Assembly: GCF_002102355.1 (NCBI RefSeq)
Contig: NZ_LQPT01000016.1
Span: 62,001 to 126,000 of the forward strand
Length of the DNA stretch: 64,000 nucleotides
Direction: 5' to 3'
Source: Mycobacterium sherrisii
GTDB taxonomy: Bacteria > Actinomycetota > Actinomycetes > Mycobacteriales > Mycobacteriaceae
A program made the translations under genes and the position numbers. Below, piece by piece: positions 46,917 through 54,221 of the stretch (positions are counted from its first letter, which is position 1; every line of letters begins with the position of its first letter). The notes under the pieces are model-generated. The model saw nothing but the letters and a program-made list of their open reading frames with translations, was not told the origin of the DNA and made no database searches.

Positions 46917-47417
46917 TTAAAAGTCGCCGGCGTTGCGGCGCAACGTTTCGATCGACTCGACCAGGGCCTGCGACTCGGCGAGGTCCATGCCGATGTCGGC
47001 GAACACCTGCTCGTTGAGCGTGACCGTGGCGTCCTCGACGGTGGACCGGCCAAGTTCGGTAATCTGCACCAGCGTCGTGCGGCCGTCGGTGGGGTGTGGG
47101 ACGCGCTGCACCAGCCCGTCGGCCTCGAGACGGCGGATCGCGTGGGTCACGCTGGTCACGTGAACCTGCAGCCGGTCGGAGGCCTTGGTGATCGGCAGCG
47201 CCCCGGTCCGGCTGAACGCCAGTAGCCGCAACAGCTCGTAACGCGAAAAGCTCAAGTCGTAGGGGCGTAGCGCCGCCTCGACCCGGGCCAGCAGGATCTG
47301 GTGCGCACGCATCACCGAGGTCACCGCGACCATGCCCTGCGAGACGTCCCCCCAGCCCGCACGCTCCCAGTTGGTCCGCGCGGCGGCTATCGGGTCACGC
47401 TTCTTCTCGACCGCCAC
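46917..47417 (-). CDS. MarR-family transcriptional regulator (Rv0737-like)
   Basis: A 166-residue winged-helix regulator starting with GTG. Recognition elements are FSRYELLRLLAFSRTGALPI, TKASDRLQVHVTSVTHAIRR (recognition helix) and the wing HPTDGRTTLVQITELG. The end SIETLRRNAGDF and the start DPIAAARTNWERAGW match Rv0737. In M. tuberculosis it directly follows rslA; here four genes lie between. It is 61 bases downstream of the aminotransferase, so it could be the local regulator of that block or of the valine operon with which it converges. Confidence 0.9.
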   Translation of the reverse strand: MAVEKKRDPIAAARTNWERAGWGDVSQGMVAVTSVMRAHQILLARVEAALRPYDLSFSRYELLRLLAFSRTGALPITKASDRLQVHVTSVTHAIRRLEADGLVQRVPHPTDGRTTLVQITELGRSTVEDATVTLNEQVFADIGMDLAESQALVESIETLRRNAGDF

Positions 47418-47478: not shown

Positions 47479-48507
47479 CTATTTGCTCACCGCGGCCAGC
47501 ACCGCCAGCGTGGATTCGCGGCTGCCGACGGTGATGCGAGCACCGCCGTCCGGGTAGCAGCGCACCCGCAGACCGGTGCCGGCGAAGGTCTCGCTCCAGC
47601 GCTGCCCCGTCGCCGGCAGGTACATGAAGTTCGCGTGCGCGTCGGTGGTGTAGATGCCCAGCCCGGACAGCCGCATCCGCAGGTAGCGCCGCTCGGCGGT
47701 GATGAGCCGGATCCGTTGCTGCAGTTCGTCTTCGGCCTCGTACGAGGCGATCACGGCGGGCAGGCTGGTCAACGCGATGCCGAACGGCAGCTGCTGGGAC
47801 CACAGCGTCTCGGCCAGCTGTGGTGCCGCCACGCCGTAGCCGATCCGCAGCCCGGCCAACCCGTATGCCTTGGAGAACGTCCGGACCACCACCACGTTCG
47901 GGAAGCGCGGTATCAGCGCCGCGATATCGATCCAGTGGTCGGGCGCGGCGAACTCGATATACGCCTCGTCAAGCAGCACGACGGTGTCTCGCGGTACCCG
48001 GCGCAAAAAGCGCAGCAAGTGCGCCACCGGCTCCAGCGTCCCGGTGGGGTTGTGCGGTCGGCACACCACCACCACCCGCGCCGTGGCGGCCGCGGCCGCC
48101 AGCCGGTCGAAGTCGTTGTGGCCGCCCTTGTCGAGCGGCACGCTGACCGCCTTCAGCCGCGCCATCCGCGCGATGATCGGGTAGCCGTCGAAGGTCGGTG
48201 TCGACATGACCATCGTGTCACCGGCAACGGTAAGCGCCTGCAGGGCTTGCAGCACCACTCCCGTCGCGCCCGCGCCGAGCACCACCTGGTCCGCGGGCAC
48301 CCCGATGCGGCCCGCGATCACGCCGCGTAACCGGTCGGGCAGGAACTCCGGGTAGCGGTTGGCGGCATCGATCGATCGAACCAGCACCGACCGTACCGCG
48401 GGCAGTGGGGGGAACGGATTCTCGTTCAGCGACAGCGCAAGTGGATCGGTCGCGTGGGGAAACACGCAAGCATCCTCGGCGGCAACCGGACTCAGGATGG
48501 GCCGCAT
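47479..48507 (-). CDS. PLP-dependent class I/II aminotransferase, HisC-like
   Basis: A 342-residue fold-type I enzyme of the histidinol-phosphate/aromatic aminotransferase group. LSLNENPFPPLPAVRSVL opens the chain, GAGATGVVLQAL binds the cofactor phosphate, CRPHNPTGTLEP holds the Asn, LLDEAYIEFA the Asp and Tyr, and RTFSKAYGLAGLRIGYGVA the Schiff-base Lys. The ATG at 48505-48507 overlaps the stop of the KAS III-like gene (TGATG), so it is translationally coupled; a GTG at 48525 is an alternative. The window lacks other histidine genes, so it more likely serves the neighbouring cassette, aminating a keto product. Confidence 0.86.
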   Translation of the reverse strand: MRPILSPVAAEDACVFPHATDPLALSLNENPFPPLPAVRSVLVRSIDAANRYPEFLPDRLRGVIAGRIGVPADQVVLGAGATGVVLQALQALTVAGDTMVMSTPTFDGYPIIARMARLKAVSVPLDKGGHNDFDRLAAAAATARVVVVCRPHNPTGTLEPVAHLLRFLRRVPRDTVVLLDEAYIEFAAPDHWIDIAALIPRFPNVVVVRTFSKAYGLAGLRIGYGVAAPQLAETLWSQQLPFGIALTSLPAVIASYEAEDELQQRIRLITAERRYLRMRLSGLGIYTTDAHANFMYLPATGQRWSETFAGTGLRVRCYPDGGARITVGSRESTLAVLAAVSK

Positions 48508-49526
48508 CACTCTCGGCCGCCCCACCGCACCGCCGCCGCACCGGCGAAGTCACCGGCGTGGGCAAAACCGGCCATCAGCACCACATCACCGGCTTTGAGC
48601 TGGCCGTCGGAGATCGCGCGATCGAGGTTGATCGGGATGCCGGCACCGAACAGGTTGCCGCACTGGTCGAACGTGTCGCGGTGCCGCTCGGCGGGCAACT
48701 CGAGCGCTTCCCGCCAGTTCCGCAGAAAAGCCCGGTTCGGCTGGTTGGTGACCAACAGGTCGATGTCCTTGGCGGGCACGCCTATTCGGTCACAGACCGC
48801 GTATGCCACCTCCGGCACCTGCCGGTTGCCGCGGGCCAGCACCTTGGTGATCTTGCTTTCGGTGAAGCCGATGCTGCCCTCCCCCGGGCCGGCCTGCCAC
48901 CACTTGCGGGGCGGGTCGAAGGACAGCGCCATCTCCCCGGCGTGTTCGCCGTAGGTGCGGCACTCGACGTCCAGGATCGGCGATTGGTCGCCGAGGGTGA
49001 CCAGCCCGACGGCGGCGCCGTCGCCAGGCACCGCCGATTGCGCCTTGCGACGGATGGTGGGCTGATCGAAGAATTGGCCCGCGGCGTTCTGCGCGACGGC
49101 GATCAGTGCCGTGCGTCCCTCGCCCGACGCCAGCAGCTTACGAGCGACGTTGAGCGCCAACACAAATGCGGCGCACCCGCCGTTGTTCAGGTCCAGCACC
49201 CACGACGGACGTAGCCCGAGCCGGTGCGCGATACCCCCGCCCTGCCCGTAGAACGCCATGTCGGGGACTTGCGTGTGGGTGATCAGCACGTCGGCGCCTT
49301 CGACGACGTCGTGCCCGTGCCGCTCGATCAGGCCCGCGACCGCACGCTCGATCATGTCGATGGAGCTTTCCTGCGGTCCGACGTGATGACGGAACTTCGG
49401 CGCCCGGAACATGACATTGTCCCGCAGGTCGTCGGTTTCGGCGAACTGAGCGTAGTAGTCCGCCGGGATCGGCGGGCCGGGCAGATAGGTGGAGACGTCG
49501 ATCAGGCTGACACTCGGGGTACCCAT
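48507..49526 (-). CDS. 3-oxoacyl-ACP synthase III-like enzyme with His-to-Asn change
   Basis: A 339-residue thiolase-fold protein. The nucleophile Cys is in LDLNNGGCAAFVLALNVA, and the C-terminal layout is that of FabH: GVPAKDIDLLVTNQPN, then FDQCGNLFGAGIPINLD and VVLMAGFAHAG. FabH has IPHQAN at the first of these sites; here it reads VTNQPN, so Asn replaces the catalytic His, while the second Asn (CGN) is kept. The usual decarboxylating triad Cys-His-Asn is therefore Cys-Asn-Asn, which favours acyl transfer or non-decarboxylating chemistry (inference). It follows the SRPBCC gene by 7 bases. Confidence 0.87.
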   Translation of the reverse strand: MGTPSVSLIDVSTYLPGPPIPADYYAQFAETDDLRDNVMFRAPKFRHHVGPQESSIDMIERAVAGLIERHGHDVVEGADVLITHTQVPDMAFYGQGGGIAHRLGLRPSWVLDLNNGGCAAFVLALNVARKLLASGEGRTALIAVAQNAAGQFFDQPTIRRKAQSAVPGDGAAVGLVTLGDQSPILDVECRTYGEHAGEMALSFDPPRKWWQAGPGEGSIGFTESKITKVLARGNRQVPEVAYAVCDRIGVPAKDIDLLVTNQPNRAFLRNWREALELPAERHRDTFDQCGNLFGAGIPINLDRAISDGQLKAGDVVLMAGFAHAGDFAGAAAVRWGGRE

Positions 49527-49533
49527 GGCGTGC

Positions 49534-50181
49534 TCATTTCATCCAGTCGGGGGTGACCGAGAGGCCATTGCGGTGGCGATACTCGGCGATTGCCTTGAGG
49601 TTCTTCAGCTCCAGCAGATGCCCGGCGCCGAACATGTCCCAGAAGTCGCCGACCCACACCGGCCGTTGCGGCGGGGCGGTCTGCGGGTACGGGTTCTCGT
49701 CGTAGAACGGGTGGTGGCAATTCGTCCACAGCACCACCGAACCCGGCTTGTTCAGCACCAGTTGCGCGTCGACTACCCGCATCAAATAGATCATCCACAG
49801 GTGCTGGCCCTGATCCCAGGCGCAGTGATAGTCGACGGTGCGGGCCACCGGATTGGCGACCGTGCGGGTGTAGATCTCGGTCTCCGAGCCGAGCCGGTCG
49901 TACGCCAGCCACAACCCCGGTTCGTCGGTCGGGGTGAAGCCGCGCAGGCTGTAGGTCCACTCCTCGAGGCTGCGGGTGTCGGACAGGTACGCGTAGAGCT
50001 CGTCCGGGGGGCAGTCGATGTAATCGTTGACGGTGCAGTATTCCCCGAACACCTGGTCGTGCGGGTACACCGAACGCATCATGTCCATGATCACCGGTGT
50101 GGCTTTTTCCCGCGGCGAGGTTTCGATGCGGGTGACCCCGTCGAGGACGTCGGGAATATCTTCAAGCGCTGGCAGCGACAT
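49534..50181 (-). CDS. SRPBCC (START-like) domain protein
   Basis: A 215-residue protein of the helix-grip fold. The ATG at 50179-50181 (MSLPALEDIPDVLDG) has a strong AAGGAGG upstream and overlaps the end of the ThDP gene by 20 bases. CPPDELYAYLSDTRSLEEWT is the N-terminal strand-helix signature of polyketide cyclase/START proteins and a long cavity-forming sheet follows (ARTVDYHCAWDQGQHLWMIY). The pocket has several His, Trp and Tyr residues. It may bind, cyclise or dehydrate the product of the adjacent enzymes; no reaction can be assigned. Confidence 0.72.
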   Translation of the reverse strand: MSLPALEDIPDVLDGVTRIETSPREKATPVIMDMMRSVYPHDQVFGEYCTVNDYIDCPPDELYAYLSDTRSLEEWTYSLRGFTPTDEPGLWLAYDRLGSETEIYTRTVANPVARTVDYHCAWDQGQHLWMIYLMRVVDAQLVLNKPGSVVLWTNCHHPFYDENPYPQTAPPQRPVWVGDFWDMFGAGHLLELKNLKAIAEYRHRNGLSVTPDWMK

Positions 50182-51904
50182 CGGGGTAGCCCTCCTTAAC
50201 GGTCGAAATATGGCTCCCGGCACCGGATTCGGACGTCGCGGTAAGGAAGGGAGCGAACGGGGCGATCTCGTCGGCGGCGCACTCGACGCCGATCACCGCC
50301 GGCCCGTCGATCTCGAGGGCCGCGCGCATGGCGTCGGCGAGTCCGCCGCGGTCGCTAACATCCATCGACATCAGGCCGGGGAACATGGCGGCCAGCCCGG
50401 CGCCGAGCTGGCTGGGCCGGAAGCGGTTGTAGCTGTACACGTTGTCGTAGTACAGCTGCTCGCGGGTCACACACATGGCGTGCGCGTTGTTGTTGAACAA
50501 CACGAAGGTGACCGGCAGCCGGTACTGCACCGCGGTGTGCACCTCCATGCCGTGCATGAAAAATGCGCCGTCACCGGCGATCACGACGGTGCGCCCGGCC
50601 GGCCGGCCGGTGTTGGCTCGCCCGAAGGCCATCCCGATCCCGGCACCGAAGCTGTAGCCCATGCCGCCCATGCCCAACGCGACGGCGAACCTGCCGTCGC
50701 GCCGCGCCGGCAAGTAATGCACGGCGGAAGCACCGGTGTTGCCCGCGTCGACCACGATGTCTGCGCCGTCGGGTAACACTTCGTCGAGCACCGCCATGGC
50801 GTCGCGGTAGCGCACACCGGTACCGACGCAGGACGGTGGCGTCAGCTCCGAGCGTCCCACGGCGTCGGGAACTCTTACCCCCGTTGGCCGTCCGCTGCCG
50901 GCCAACGCCCGAGTCAGCGTCCGCAACGCGGTGCGCAGATCCCCGGTGTGCACGTGCGCGCAGGGGATGTACGGGCGCGCGGAGCCGATAGAGACGGTGC
51001 GCACGGCGGCCAGGGCTGCATCGAGACCGGCTCGGGCGGTGACCGGCAATCGGGTGCCGACCACCAGGCACACGGCGCTGGCGGCGATCGCTTCCGCGAC
51101 GCCGGGGTGGCCCATCACACCGGTCACCCCTAAGGCCGAAGATCGGCCGAATCCCGGTGTGCCCGAAGCATCTTTGGCGTCGGGCACGGTTGCAACCCGG
51201 GCACGCAGGACCGCGCGCAAGGCCTCGAGCTCGCCGCGGGCGTCGTCGCGGGCCACCTGCTCGCCCGCGATGATCGTGATCGGTCCGCCGGCGTCGCGCA
51301 GCAGGCCCACGATTCGATGCGTATCTCCGATCGGGCGCGGGTCGACGGCCGGGGCTTGCGGCACGGCCCCCGCGCAAACCCGAGCCTGCTGAATATCTTT
51401 GGGCAGCAACACCACTGCCGGTCCTCCGGTGCGTGCCGCGGCGATGGCCCGGGACAGTGCCGCGCCGACCTCGGCCGGCCGCAACACCCGCTCGGTGTAC
51501 ACCGAGACCGCGGAGAACACCGCCTCGACGTCAAGGGAGCCGTTAGCGCCACTGGTGTCTTGAAACGAGCCCCTGCCGTCCAGGGTGGTCGGCGTCTGAC
51601 CGACCAGCGCCAGCACCGGGACCCGGCTGGTGAGCGACTCCCCAAGACCCGCTACAAGATTCAGCGCACCCCCACCGGAAGTCGCCGCGACCACACCCAG
51701 ACCGGCGCCGCTGCGGCTGTAGCCATCGGCCATGGCGGCCGCCGAGAATTCGTGCTTGGCCAGTACCGCAGTGACGCCGGTGTGGAAATGTGCTGCGTCG
51801 TAAAGATCTTCGATGTTGGCGCCGTCCACTCCGAAGATATGGTTCGCGCCGGTCGACGCGAGGCATTCGACGATGTGGTCAACAGCCCGGTAACTCCGAG
51901 GCAT
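50162..51904 (-). CDS. thiamine-diphosphate-dependent enzyme of the acetolactate-synthase/decarboxylase superfamily
   Basis: A 580-residue three-domain ThDP enzyme. The N-terminal pyrimidine-binding domain has HIFGVDGANIEDLYDAAHF and the activating Glu in LAKHEFSAAAMADGYSRSG. The central Rossmann domain follows, and the C-terminal ThDP domain has GMGGMGYSFGAGIGMAFG, then VVIAGDGAFFMHGMEVHTAV and LFNNNAHAMC, the GDG...NN metal-diphosphate motif. Residues of true acetolactate synthase for FAD binding are not evident, so a decarboxylase or carboligase making an acyloin is more likely. First gene of the block, with AGGTGA before its ATG and a SigL-type promoter 35 bases upstream. Confidence 0.86.
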   Translation of the reverse strand: MPRSYRAVDHIVECLASTGANHIFGVDGANIEDLYDAAHFHTGVTAVLAKHEFSAAAMADGYSRSGAGLGVVAATSGGGALNLVAGLGESLTSRVPVLALVGQTPTTLDGRGSFQDTSGANGSLDVEAVFSAVSVYTERVLRPAEVGAALSRAIAAARTGGPAVVLLPKDIQQARVCAGAVPQAPAVDPRPIGDTHRIVGLLRDAGGPITIIAGEQVARDDARGELEALRAVLRARVATVPDAKDASGTPGFGRSSALGVTGVMGHPGVAEAIAASAVCLVVGTRLPVTARAGLDAALAAVRTVSIGSARPYIPCAHVHTGDLRTALRTLTRALAGSGRPTGVRVPDAVGRSELTPPSCVGTGVRYRDAMAVLDEVLPDGADIVVDAGNTGASAVHYLPARRDGRFAVALGMGGMGYSFGAGIGMAFGRANTGRPAGRTVVIAGDGAFFMHGMEVHTAVQYRLPVTFVLFNNNAHAMCVTREQLYYDNVYSYNRFRPSQLGAGLAAMFPGLMSMDVSDRGGLADAMRAALEIDGPAVIGVECAADEIAPFAPFLTATSESGAGSHISTVKEGYPDVAASA

Positions 51905-51938
51905 CTGCTCACCTAAGTTCTATTGAGACGATGCCTTT

Positions 51939-51966
51939 GACACGAGTCAGGTGATCGCGGGGTTCA
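51939..51966 (-). promoter_or_regulatory. SigL-type promoter of the ThDP-SRPBCC-KAS-aminotransferase block
   Basis: Read on the minus strand: TGAACC (51966-51961), 16 bases, CGTGTC (51944-51939). This equals the published SigL consensus TGAACC-N16-CGTGTC at every conserved position. The start of transcription would be near 51932 and the leader about 28 bases. The promoter begins 10 bases after the rslA stop, so the block can be expressed apart from sigL-rslA. Confidence 0.8.
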
Positions 51967-51975
51967 CCTGCCGGG

Positions 51976-52770
51976 TTACAGCGAGCGTTCCAGCAGAACC
52001 TCGCCGCTGTCGGCCGCCACCACCTGCACGGCAGCGATCTGCTCGAGTGGTGTCGAAATGCTCGCGGCCGGCGTCGCGGTGTGGCCCGGTTCGGCCACCC
52101 AGGTCGCCAGCCGGGTCTTGCTGCCGTCGCGACCCACCACCACCATGGCCAGCGTGTCGTGGTGCGCGTACGGCGGAGCCAGGCAGACGCACTTCAGGTT
52201 GATCGCGGTGCCCCAATGCTGGCTGGACAACTGGACCGTCGATGCCAGCATCGTGGTACCCACCTGCGCCATCTCCGACGACTGGGCCACGGTCTGCGTG
52301 GACGCCGGGGACGAGGACCGGTCCTGGAAACCCTGGAAACCCTGGACGCCCAAGAACACGCCGACCGCCAGCACCGCGGCCGCGGCCGACGACGCCACCC
52401 AGGTGATGATCCTGGCGCGGCGACGCCGCCAGGCCACCTTCGCCAGCAATGACGGCAACAACTCGGGCGACGGCTCCGGCGGCGCCGCCGCGGCGTCCCC
52501 GGACTGGCCCATGGCGGCCACCTCTTCACGATCGAGCTGCGACAGCAGGGCCGGCACCCCGCTGAGCTCGGCGACGGCCTCCCGGCAGGCCGGGCACTGG
52601 GCCAGGTGCGCCTCGAACTCGCGGCGGTCGGCCGAGGACAATGACCCCAGCACGTATGCGGCATCCCACATCGCGTACCGGTGGTTGTCACCCATGATCA
52701 GACCAAAGACCTCGTTGTCGCCAGGCGGACCCAAGCCGCGCAGCGGCGTCTTCATTTCATCCATCTCCAT
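51976..52770 (-). CDS. rslA: anti-sigma-L factor RslA
   Basis: A 264-residue membrane-bound anti-sigma factor. The N-terminal zinc-associated domain has HRYAMWDAAYVLGSLSSADR and the HxxxCxxC motif in EAHLAQCPACREAV, which binds zinc and releases SigL under oxidation in M. tuberculosis. One membrane helix (WVASSAAAAVLAVGVFLGV, about residues 138-156) precedes an extracytoplasmic domain. Start ATG 52770 or 52755 (MKTPLRGLGPP); both have purine-rich sites. It follows sigL by 52 bases. Confidence 0.95.
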   Translation of the reverse strand: MEMDEMKTPLRGLGPPGDNEVFGLIMGDNHRYAMWDAAYVLGSLSSADRREFEAHLAQCPACREAVAELSGVPALLSQLDREEVAAMGQSGDAAAAPPEPSPELLPSLLAKVAWRRRRARIITWVASSAAAAVLAVGVFLGVQGFQGFQDRSSSPASTQTVAQSSEMAQVGTTMLASTVQLSSQHWGTAINLKCVCLAPPYAHHDTLAMVVVGRDGSKTRLATWVAEPGHTATPAASISTPLEQIAAVQVVAADSGEVLLERSL

Positions 52771-52822: not shown

Positions 52823-53368
52823 TCATCGGGTAACTCCGAGTTCCTGCAGAGTGAGCCGCAAAGCCCGCACGGCATAGTGTAGTCGGGACTTCACAGTTCC
52901 CTCGGCTATCTCGAGGTCTGCAGCAATCTGTGCGGTGGTCCATCCGCGGTAGTAGGACCGCTCGATGACGGCCCGGTGTTCCGCGGACAATTGCGTCATC
53001 GCTTCGGCGATCAGCAACCGGTCCAGCGCCGCGTTGACCTCGTCGGGCGTCGCCTGTTCCGGGGCTCCCTCTTCGTCGAGGGAGCCGACCACGTTGCGAT
53101 AGCGCGCACTGCGCCGGTCGTCGATGATCATGTTCCTGGCCACGGTAAACAACCAGGCACGCGCCGACCGTTCCGTGTCGCCGATGACCTCCGGGTGCTG
53201 CCATGCGCGCAGCAACGTTTCCTGGACCACGTCCTCGGCGTGGCTGCGGTCACCGGTCAACCGCAGCGCGTAGCGCCACAACACCGCGGCATGCTCGTCG
53301 TAGAGCGCCTTCATCAATGCGGCCTCGCCGGCACCCGACGCCGGGTGAGTATCAGCACCCCGTGCCAC
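52823..53368 (-). CDS. sigL: ECF sigma factor SigL
   Basis: A 181-residue extracytoplasmic-function sigma factor. GTG 53368 is chosen since AGGAGG is placed eight bases upstream; the longer open frame to 53488 overlaps mapA. Region 2: LRLTGDRSHAEDVVQETLLR and ARAWLFTVARNMIIDDRRSA. Region 4 (recognising the -35): YYRGWTTAQIAADLEIAEGT, VKSRLHYAVRAL. It matches M. tuberculosis SigL to the C-terminal LTLQELGVTR. Confidence 0.96.
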   Translation of the reverse strand: MARGADTHPASGAGEAALMKALYDEHAAVLWRYALRLTGDRSHAEDVVQETLLRAWQHPEVIGDTERSARAWLFTVARNMIIDDRRSARYRNVVGSLDEEGAPEQATPDEVNAALDRLLIAEAMTQLSAEHRAVIERSYYRGWTTAQIAADLEIAEGTVKSRLHYAVRALRLTLQELGVTR

Positions 53369-53388: not shown

Positions 53389-53416
53389 GACACGAGTTGA
53401 GTAGCGGTTTAGTTCG
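53389..53416 (-). promoter_or_regulatory. candidate SigL autoregulatory promoter of sigL-rslA
   Basis: On the minus strand CGAACT (53416-53411), 16 bases, CGTGTC (53394-53389). The -10 is a full match to the SigL consensus and the -35 matches TGAACC in four of six bases, with identical spacing. It sits in the mapA-sigL gap. SigL is known to control its own operon in M. tuberculosis. Confidence 0.6.
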
Positions 53417-53420
53417 AGGT

Positions 53421-54221
53421 CTATCGCAGCGTGAGGATGCGGGGCCCGTCCTCGGTGACCGCCACGGTGTGCTCCCAATGCGCCGCACGGGATCCGTCGG
53501 TGGTGGTGACCGTCCAGTCGTCGTCGAGAACGGTAGTTTTGCCGGTTCCCAGGGTCAGCATCGGCTCGATGGCCAGCACCGACCCGACGGCCAGCAACGG
53601 CCCACGGCCCGGCGAGCCTTCGTTGGGCAGGAAGGGGTCCATGTGCATCTGCCGGCCGATGCCGTGGCCGCCGTACCCTTCGACGATCCCGAAGCTGCGA
53701 CCGTGCCGCGCGGCGGCCGCCCGGGTTCCCATTTCGATGGCGTGCGAGACATCCGTCAGCCGGTTACCAGGGATCATCGCCGCGATTCCGGCCTCGAGGG
53801 ATTCCCTGGTCGCCGCGGACAACGCCGCATCGGCGGGGTCGAGGGCACCCACGCCGAAGGTGATGGCCGCGTCGCCGTGCCAGCCGTCCAGGATCGCGCC
53901 GCAGTCGATGGACACCAGGTCACCGGGGACGAGGATTTCGGCGGCGGACGGGATGCCGTGTACCACCCGGTCGTTGACGGACGCGCAGATCGATGCCGGA
54001 TACCCGTGGTAGCCCAGAAACGACGGCGTGGCGCCCGCCTCCCTGATCACCGTCTCGGCGATGTGGTCCAGCCCCAGGGTGGAGCTGCCGGACACCGCGG
54101 CGGCCCGCACGGCCTGCAGCGCGGCGGCGACCACGGCGCCCGCCGCGGCCATCGCGTCGAGTTCGCCGGCGCTACGCTGCGGCACCACCTTGCGGCTCCG
54201 CAACCGCGCCAGCGGATTCAT
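53421..54221 (-). CDS. mapA: methionine aminopeptidase, type I
   Basis: Removes the initiator Met. The 266-residue protein equals the length of M. tuberculosis MapA. The five metal ligands are visible: two Asp in [20 protein letters not shown], His in [13 protein letters not shown], Glu in [10 protein letters not shown] and Glu in [10 protein letters not shown]. It starts 2 bases after adk. Confidence 0.96.

Follow-up and report, generated by a model that had tools for sequence, protein, structure and literature searches.

We analyzed a 64,000-nt stretch of the Mycobacterium sherrisii genome (contig NZ_LQPT01000016.1, positions 62,001 to 126,000; "the window" below means this whole stretch), in which four enzyme genes lie between rslA, which codes for an anti-sigma factor, and a gene for a MarR-family regulator. 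Read along the minus strand, the order is sigL, rslA, a SigL-type site, a thiamine diphosphate (ThDP) enzyme, an SRPBCC protein, a ketoacyl synthase III (KASIII)-like enzyme, a pyridoxal phosphate (PLP) aminotransferase and marR. An earlier note, made from the sequence alone, had described the four genes as a tight operon with TGAACC-N16-CGTGTC just upstream and an Rv0737 orthologue on the far side. This description holds in all its parts: the four co-directional genes show a 20-nt overlap, a 7-nt gap and a 1-nt overlap between neighbors, the site is present at 51939-51966, and marR occupies 46917-47417. The features are as follows (ORF, open reading frame).

52823..53368, minus strand: sigL, extracytoplasmic function (ECF) sigma factor (Pfam Sigma70_r2/r4; NF007227, 278.7 bits, cut-off 202)
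53389..53416, minus strand: SigL-type site 5' of sigL, CGAACT-N16-CGTGTC (from sequence)
51976..52770, minus strand: rslA, zinc anti-sigma factor (Pfam zf-HC2; HxxxCxxC = HLAQCPAC; match to 3HUG, E 4.7e-40)
51939..51966, minus strand: putative SigL-type operon promoter, TGAACC-N16-CGTGTC (from sequence; kept at linked cassettes)
50162..51904, minus strand: ThDP-dependent carboligase, predicted CqsB3/NzsH-like role (three TPP_enzyme domains, Pfam)
49534..50181, minus strand: SRPBCC cyclase, CqsB2-like (ATG start, ORF opens at 50223; overlaps the ThDP enzyme gene by 20 nt)
48507..49526, minus strand: KASIII-like acyl-condensing enzyme, predicted CqsB1-like role (Pfam ACP_syn_III; Cys118-Asn261-Asn291)
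47479..48507, minus strand: PLP aminotransferase, HisC/aromatic type, predicted CqsB7-like role (Pfam Aminotran_1_2; ATG start, ORF opens at 48525)
46917..47417, minus strand: MarR-family regulator, Rv0737-type (Pfam MarR; 61 nt past the aminotransferase stop)

The operon site sits between the rslA stop (51976) and the ATG of the ThDP enzyme (51904), which is directly preceded by AGGTGA. The sigL ORF opens at 53488, and its likely start is a GTG preceded by GGAGG. All four operon genes are open and, compared with four relatives, differ mostly at third codon positions, as expected under purifying selection.

The cyclase and a predicted carbazole-type pathway

The SRPBCC protein was assigned to no Pfam family (Pfam and NCBIfam otherwise gave generic names), and its sole significant match in the PDB was CqsB2 (6ipv, E 1e-46), described as the carbazole synthase of carquinostatin (PMC7466098), with 79 of 173 aligned residues identical. 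Five CqsB2 residues belong to the mechanism proposed in that paper, among them Y144, Y172, H206 and E209; these four (Tyr144, Tyr172, His206 and Glu209) were invariant in 63 of 63 homologues, the window protein included, and 45 positions were invariant across the homologues and CqsB2 alike. The closest characterized homologue of the cyclase, together with the residues it keeps, thus indicates a carbazole-type assembly instead of the aminoketone or pyrrole at which the earlier note had left the chemistry. According to PMC7466098, the carbazole core is made by CqsB7, a tryptophan aminotransferase, CqsB3, a ThDP enzyme joining indole-3-pyruvate and pyruvate, CqsB1, which resembles KASIII and condenses the beta-keto acid so formed with an acyl thioester, and the cyclase CqsB2. 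The window operon holds all four of these enzyme kinds, and only these four. Its ThDP enzyme has visible KHE (catalytic Glu) and GDG...NN motifs and matches best BbmA/CsmA in the PDB, followed by acetolactate synthases (a literature search on BbmA/CsmA found nothing relevant among the papers listed), and the closest structures to the KAS protein are FabH-type enzymes.

By analogy with the carquinostatin pathway, the aminotransferase would convert tryptophan to indole-3-pyruvate, on which the ThDP enzyme would act in a CqsB3/NzsH-like role; the KASIII-like enzyme, holding an acyl group on Cys118, would condense it with the acid from this step, and the SRPBCC protein would close and aromatize the new ring on the indole. 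On balance, we think that the four genes probably act as one operon under SigL/RslA control for the synthesis of a carbazole-type compound. The product may be a lipophilic, radical-scavenging 1-alkyl-2-methylcarbazole resembling the lipocarbazoles of Tsukamurella. Lipocarbazoles with antioxidative activity were reportedly isolated from Tsukamurella pseudospumae. A plasmid of T. tyrosinosolvens carries a ThDP-cyclase-KAS set of the same KAS kind (Cys-Asn-Asn, see below) as the window, and in a genus that we take to be Tsukamurella, since the cyclase of one member genome (G811) is 100% identical to that of the plasmid, 15 of the 16 genomes contain the cyclase. Because both lipocarbazoles and cyclase sets occur in Tsukamurella, a lipocarbazole-like product is our best specific guess. 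Lipocarbazoles, carbazoquinocins and carazostatin are described as sharing the 1-alkyl-2-methylcarbazole frame, and carbazoquinocins as inhibiting lipid peroxidation (PMC11350554).

The SigL-type site and the MarR neighbor

The pattern TGAACC-N14..18-CGTGTC occurs 3 times in the 5.56-Mb genome (reversed control pattern, 1) and TGAACY-N16-CGTRTY 7 times (reversed control, 0). We reduced 141 cassettes to 134 with distinct upstream regions, 86 of them linked to SigL and RslA on the same strand and 48 unlinked in the fetched stretch. TGAAC[CT]-N16-CGT was found no more than 250 nt upstream in 85 of the 86 linked cassettes, as compared with 22 of 8600 dinucleotide shuffles of their upstream regions, a count to be read with the reservation that the loci are related by descent and not independent. 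The sole exception (L067) has CGAACC-N16-CGTGTC. In the 62 sites with enough flank the hexamers are conserved and most spacer columns vary. The site accompanies the operon where 5.7 kb are inserted (L038, L040, L092) and where the cyclase gene leads the order (L082, L083), and it is also found where cyclase copies are separated (L054, L057) and in Nocardia farcinica (L095). Similarly, a SigL-like site precedes sigL in 42 of 42 loci (by a looser pattern, with no shuffle control), which supports the SigL consensus to which the earlier note had matched the operon site. Neither the SigL consensus nor SigL targets were found in PMC10449499.

These comparisons bear out the promoter part of the redox-sensitive SigL/RslA control that the earlier note had put forward, and dependence on SigL itself is predicted from them as likely. 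The window RslA matches 3HUG, the M. tuberculosis protein (PMC2877774), and its HxxxCxxC motif is kept in 40 of 40 RslA sequences. Oxidation of the CXXC of RslA is reported to release zinc and to lower the affinity for SigL 8-fold (PMC2877774). The oxidized zinc-CXXC center would therefore free SigL, which would then transcribe sigL-rslA and the operon. The SigL/RslA regulon of M. tuberculosis is described as comprising pks10-pks7, Rv1138c-Rv1139c and others (PMC13002591), and the accessible part of that paper names no operon of the carbazole type among the SigL targets. The six other sites matching TGAACY-N16-CGTRTY were checked for same-strand ORFs, and none is claimed as a further SigL target: three lie inside or overlap an ORF (L002, L139, L140), one has no ORF listed (L138), and the remaining two, with ORFs starting 76 nt (L141) or more than 230 nt (L142) downstream, are possible targets.

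Among 60 mycobacterial cyclase loci, picked from the matches listed with preference for well-assembled genomes and double copies, RslA lies upstream in the same orientation in 41, and marR is next to the cassette in 36 of these 41. It is also kept in 19 of 20 loci without the cyclase, which were picked among the RslA matches listed. Rv0737 is described as encoded adjacent to the sigL-rslA operon, and both it and its M. smegmatis homologue as binding the sigL-rslA promoter and raising its expression (PMC13002591). Since marR follows the operon, with which it may be co-transcribed, at a distance of 61 nt, a loop is possible in which SigL drives the operon and marR, whose product acts in turn on sigL-rslA. 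The adjacent MarR protein would thus probably feed back on the circuit, and the operon product is a candidate MarR ligand. The window MarR protein contains no cysteine, as is the case for 34 of 37 related sequences (the window included); conserved redox-sensing cysteines are reported for Rv0737 (PMC13002591).

Alternative readings, distribution and history

A number of observations weigh against a SigL-controlled carbazole operon, and they concern the chemistry, the regulation and the distribution of the block. With regard to chemistry, the KAS protein keeps Cys118 and Asn291, but Asn261 stands where KASIII has its catalytic His, so that the triad is Cys-Asn-Asn and not the Cys-His-Asn of KASIII and of the CQS-like L253; the other CQS-like enzyme, L099, has the His as well. 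Asn occupies this position in each of the 71 sequences that have a residue here (one more has a gap), a count that left out L253, L099, FabH and two distant KAS proteins of the FabH type, all of which carry His. In the cyclase, Glu105 of CqsB2 is replaced by Asp in 62 of 63 homologues, including that of the window, although this change is conservative. Because the KAS lacks the catalytic His and the cyclase has Asp105, the reaction may differ from that of the carquinostatin enzymes. The aminotransferase has as its best PDB match a "putative phenylalanine aminotransferase" (4r2n, E 1.1e-50), followed by HisC proteins, and resembles such Phe/HisC enzymes, none a proven Trp enzyme. Besides, the operon includes no dedicated acyl carrier protein (ACP) or priming KASIII (CqsB6/B5). 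Most of these features would also suit a SigL-controlled operon making some other aromatic product derived from an acyloin, such as one based on phenylpyruvate or hydroxyphenylpyruvate, or an acylated acyloin in which the carbazole ring is never closed, and the weak match of the cyclase to ScyC, a scytonemin enzyme (18.8 bits where the cut-off is 400), points the same way. However, Y144, Y172, H206, E209 and the 45 invariant positions are common to the cyclase and CqsB2, and ring closure would need a nucleophilic aromatic ring such as indole. We therefore consider a different aromatic product rather unlikely, though it is the strongest competitor of the carbazole.

The KAS sequences also allowed the window enzymes to be placed. 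L253 (from genome G535, of the same class) combines a Cys-His-Asn KAS with a cyclase 72% identical to the CqsB2 segment, and the same genome carries a Cys-Asn-Asn set as well (L254). In the KAS tree, L253 and L099 form a separate clade (support 1.0), from which it follows that the window enzymes belong to a distinct subfamily, sister to the carquinostatin type. His84 is present in 71 of 72 members of the Cys-Asn-Asn group and absent from L253 and L099; His323 is found in the 71 sequences that have Asn at position 261 and also in L099, but not in L253, and is thus no mark of the Cys-Asn-Asn group alone. Both residues are candidates to replace the missing catalytic His. Carbazoquinocin and carbazomycin pathways are thought likely to use acyl donors without a beta-hydroxy group (PMC7466098), and by analogy the altered triad may reflect a donor of this kind. 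Within mycobacteria, 13 KAS sequences without adjacent aminotransferase or SigL form a well-supported group (1.0), and the SigL-type site was found in none of the 13 mycobacterial cassettes lacking an adjacent aminotransferase; monophyly of the SigL-linked mycobacterial KAS group was unsupported (0.17).

With regard to regulation, the site was present in 16 of the 48 unlinked cassettes and absent from 32, among them the Tsukamurella sets L096 and L259, which means that the chemistry does not need SigL. Several of the 16 belong to the lineage with the 5.7-kb insert, in which rslA lies beyond the fetched stretch, and others, for example L087 and L260, show no SigL in the stretch fetched. It could be argued from the abundance of unlinked cassettes without the site that the motif is an ancient leftover near sigL-rslA and that the operon is read from rslA or another promoter, SigL control being incidental; read-through is possible, as no more than 210 nt separate rslA from the first gene of the cassette in 37 of the 41 picked loci with linked RslA. 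We regard this as improbable, because the site remains at the operon after the 5.7-kb insertion and after changes in gene order, and because conservation is concentrated in its hexamers, most spacer positions being variable.

With regard to distribution, several species live without the block, including M. asiaticum DSM 44297, M. gordonae, M. scrofulaceum and M. arosiense. The earlier note had called the block accessory and inserted after rslA, and neither term fits the comparison. The cyclase was found in 203 of 297 genomes of the genus (194 of 275 of high quality; some decayed copies are included) and RslA in 260 of 297, and 39 of the 41 RslA-linked picked loci have the order rslA, ThDP enzyme, cyclase, KAS, aminotransferase. 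Remnants were also detected in place. In 6 of the 20 picked cyclase-less loci (L100, L101, L102, L107, L109 and L116), pieces of cassette genes survive between rslA and marR, including a nearly whole aminotransferase in two; in 13 others marR comes after rslA and no such piece was detected, and L119 belongs to neither class. A second set of 80 named loci was found via marR as the best 80 of 353 MarR matches, which lean to slow growers and overlap the other locus set. The block was intact in 56 of these, absent from 15 and partial in 9; four of the partial loci end at the edge of a stretch or contig, leaving five, among them M. interjectum, M. ahvazicum and M. innocens. Interrupted cyclase copies occur in three genomes of 3.2-3.3 Mb, two of which have fragments of mapA, sigL or rslA just upstream of the copy. 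In view of the wide occurrence of the cyclase, its linkage to RslA in 41 of 60 loci and the remnants in place, absence looks like loss, and repeated loss of an old block fits best. A recently inserted accessory cassette, which the 15 named and 13 picked loci with rslA directly before marR might suggest, is very improbable, being contradicted by this distribution and by the remnants in 6 of 20 picked loci.

Beyond the genus, the cyclase was detected in 64 of 201 genomes of the family and in 15 of 31 genera, the window genus included. With the CqsB2 segment as query, matches were found in 28 of 394 genomes of the class (6 of 137 genera). Six plasmids of Rhodococcus, Nocardia, Tsukamurella and Embleya carry the cyclase. 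The 396 genus genomes compared, in which the best match to the 3HUG RslA was 77%, did not include M. tuberculosis; from consecutive gene numbering we assume that rslA and Rv0737 adjoin in that species, and we count it among those that keep sigL-rslA-marR without the block.

Other kinds of cassettes and neighbors were also observed. L052 (11627-15456) is a paralogous cassette without a SigL site; the genes after it encode an AMP-binding acyl ligase and an MMPL transporter, neighbors that suggest a lipid-linked product. In L038 (4537-10123), 5.7 kb separate rslA from the operon and include an FAD-dependent monooxygenase beside rslA and a divergent FtsX-type ABC transporter, possibly tailoring and export genes. 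L081 (14586-18341) is a second RslA-cyclase-KAS-aminotransferase set, in which a ThDP gene was not detected and which lies some 7 kb downstream of the first set. A hemerythrin-domain protein lies beside the cassette on Rhodococcus and Nocardia plasmids (L094, 4601-5311; L098, 6181-6813). Six sampled genomes have both a SigL-linked and a second, unlinked cassette (L043/L044, L045/L046, L047/L048, L084/L085, L088/L089 and L090/L091).

Implications and comparison with known systems

If the operon does make a carbazole under SigL control, mycobacteria have a conserved indole-derived specialized metabolite, SigL/RslA has a direct, local output, and the position of this redox sigma factor is explained. 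The data also suggest candidate genes for the lipocarbazoles and draw attention to a KASIII subfamily whose Cys-Asn-Asn triad is unusual. More tentatively, SigL, RslA and the Rv0737-type MarR protein could be an ancient redox circuit with an original local output, a carbazole antioxidant soluble in membranes and made with the Cys-Asn-Asn KAS; species without the block would then run a regulatory relic, their SigL/Rv0737-type arrangement being what remained after loss. Enzymes for the carbazole core are known from Streptomyces, and their occurrence in S. cattleya, Sorangium and Scytonema has been noted (PMC7466098). A literature search, mostly without subscription journals, did not find them placed in mycobacteria or under SigL, and the only mycobacterial mention in the accessible part of PMC10100901 is an inhibition test. 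The earlier note would have given up its reading if the block occupied the same place in all mycobacteria and had a known product; half of this applies, as the block does occupy the same place in most sampled carriers, and a described mycobacterial product was not found in the search.

The systems most similar to the window operon are the carquinostatin (cqs) and neocarazostatin (nzs) clusters of Streptomyces, with which it has in common a ThDP carboligase, a KASIII-like enzyme and a CqsB2-type cyclase, as well as, in the case of cqs, a Trp aminotransferase; four of five proposed catalytic residues are common to the cyclases. It differs from them in its Cys-Asn-Asn KAS (the contrast being with the Cys-His-Asn of the CQS-like L253, which stands in for CqsB1), in Asp for Glu105, and in having neither an ACP/KASIII pair nor a prenyltransferase but a SigL-type promoter and a MarR neighbor. 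In scytonemin synthesis, ScyA carries out ThDP carboligation of aryl pyruvates and ScyC then acts as cyclase; the likeness of the window cyclase to ScyC is confined to the low-scoring match given above. With M. tuberculosis the window shares the same SigL/RslA sigma and anti-sigma pair and the -35/-10 type of the SigL regulon. The lipocarbazoles of Tsukamurella pseudospumae come from the same bacterial order, and a Cys-Asn-Asn-type ThDP-cyclase-KAS set lies on a Tsukamurella plasmid. Unlike the window, the two Tsukamurella sets examined (L096 and L259) have no SigL site. Their genes are candidates for lipocarbazole synthesis, for which no genes were found described in the papers searched.

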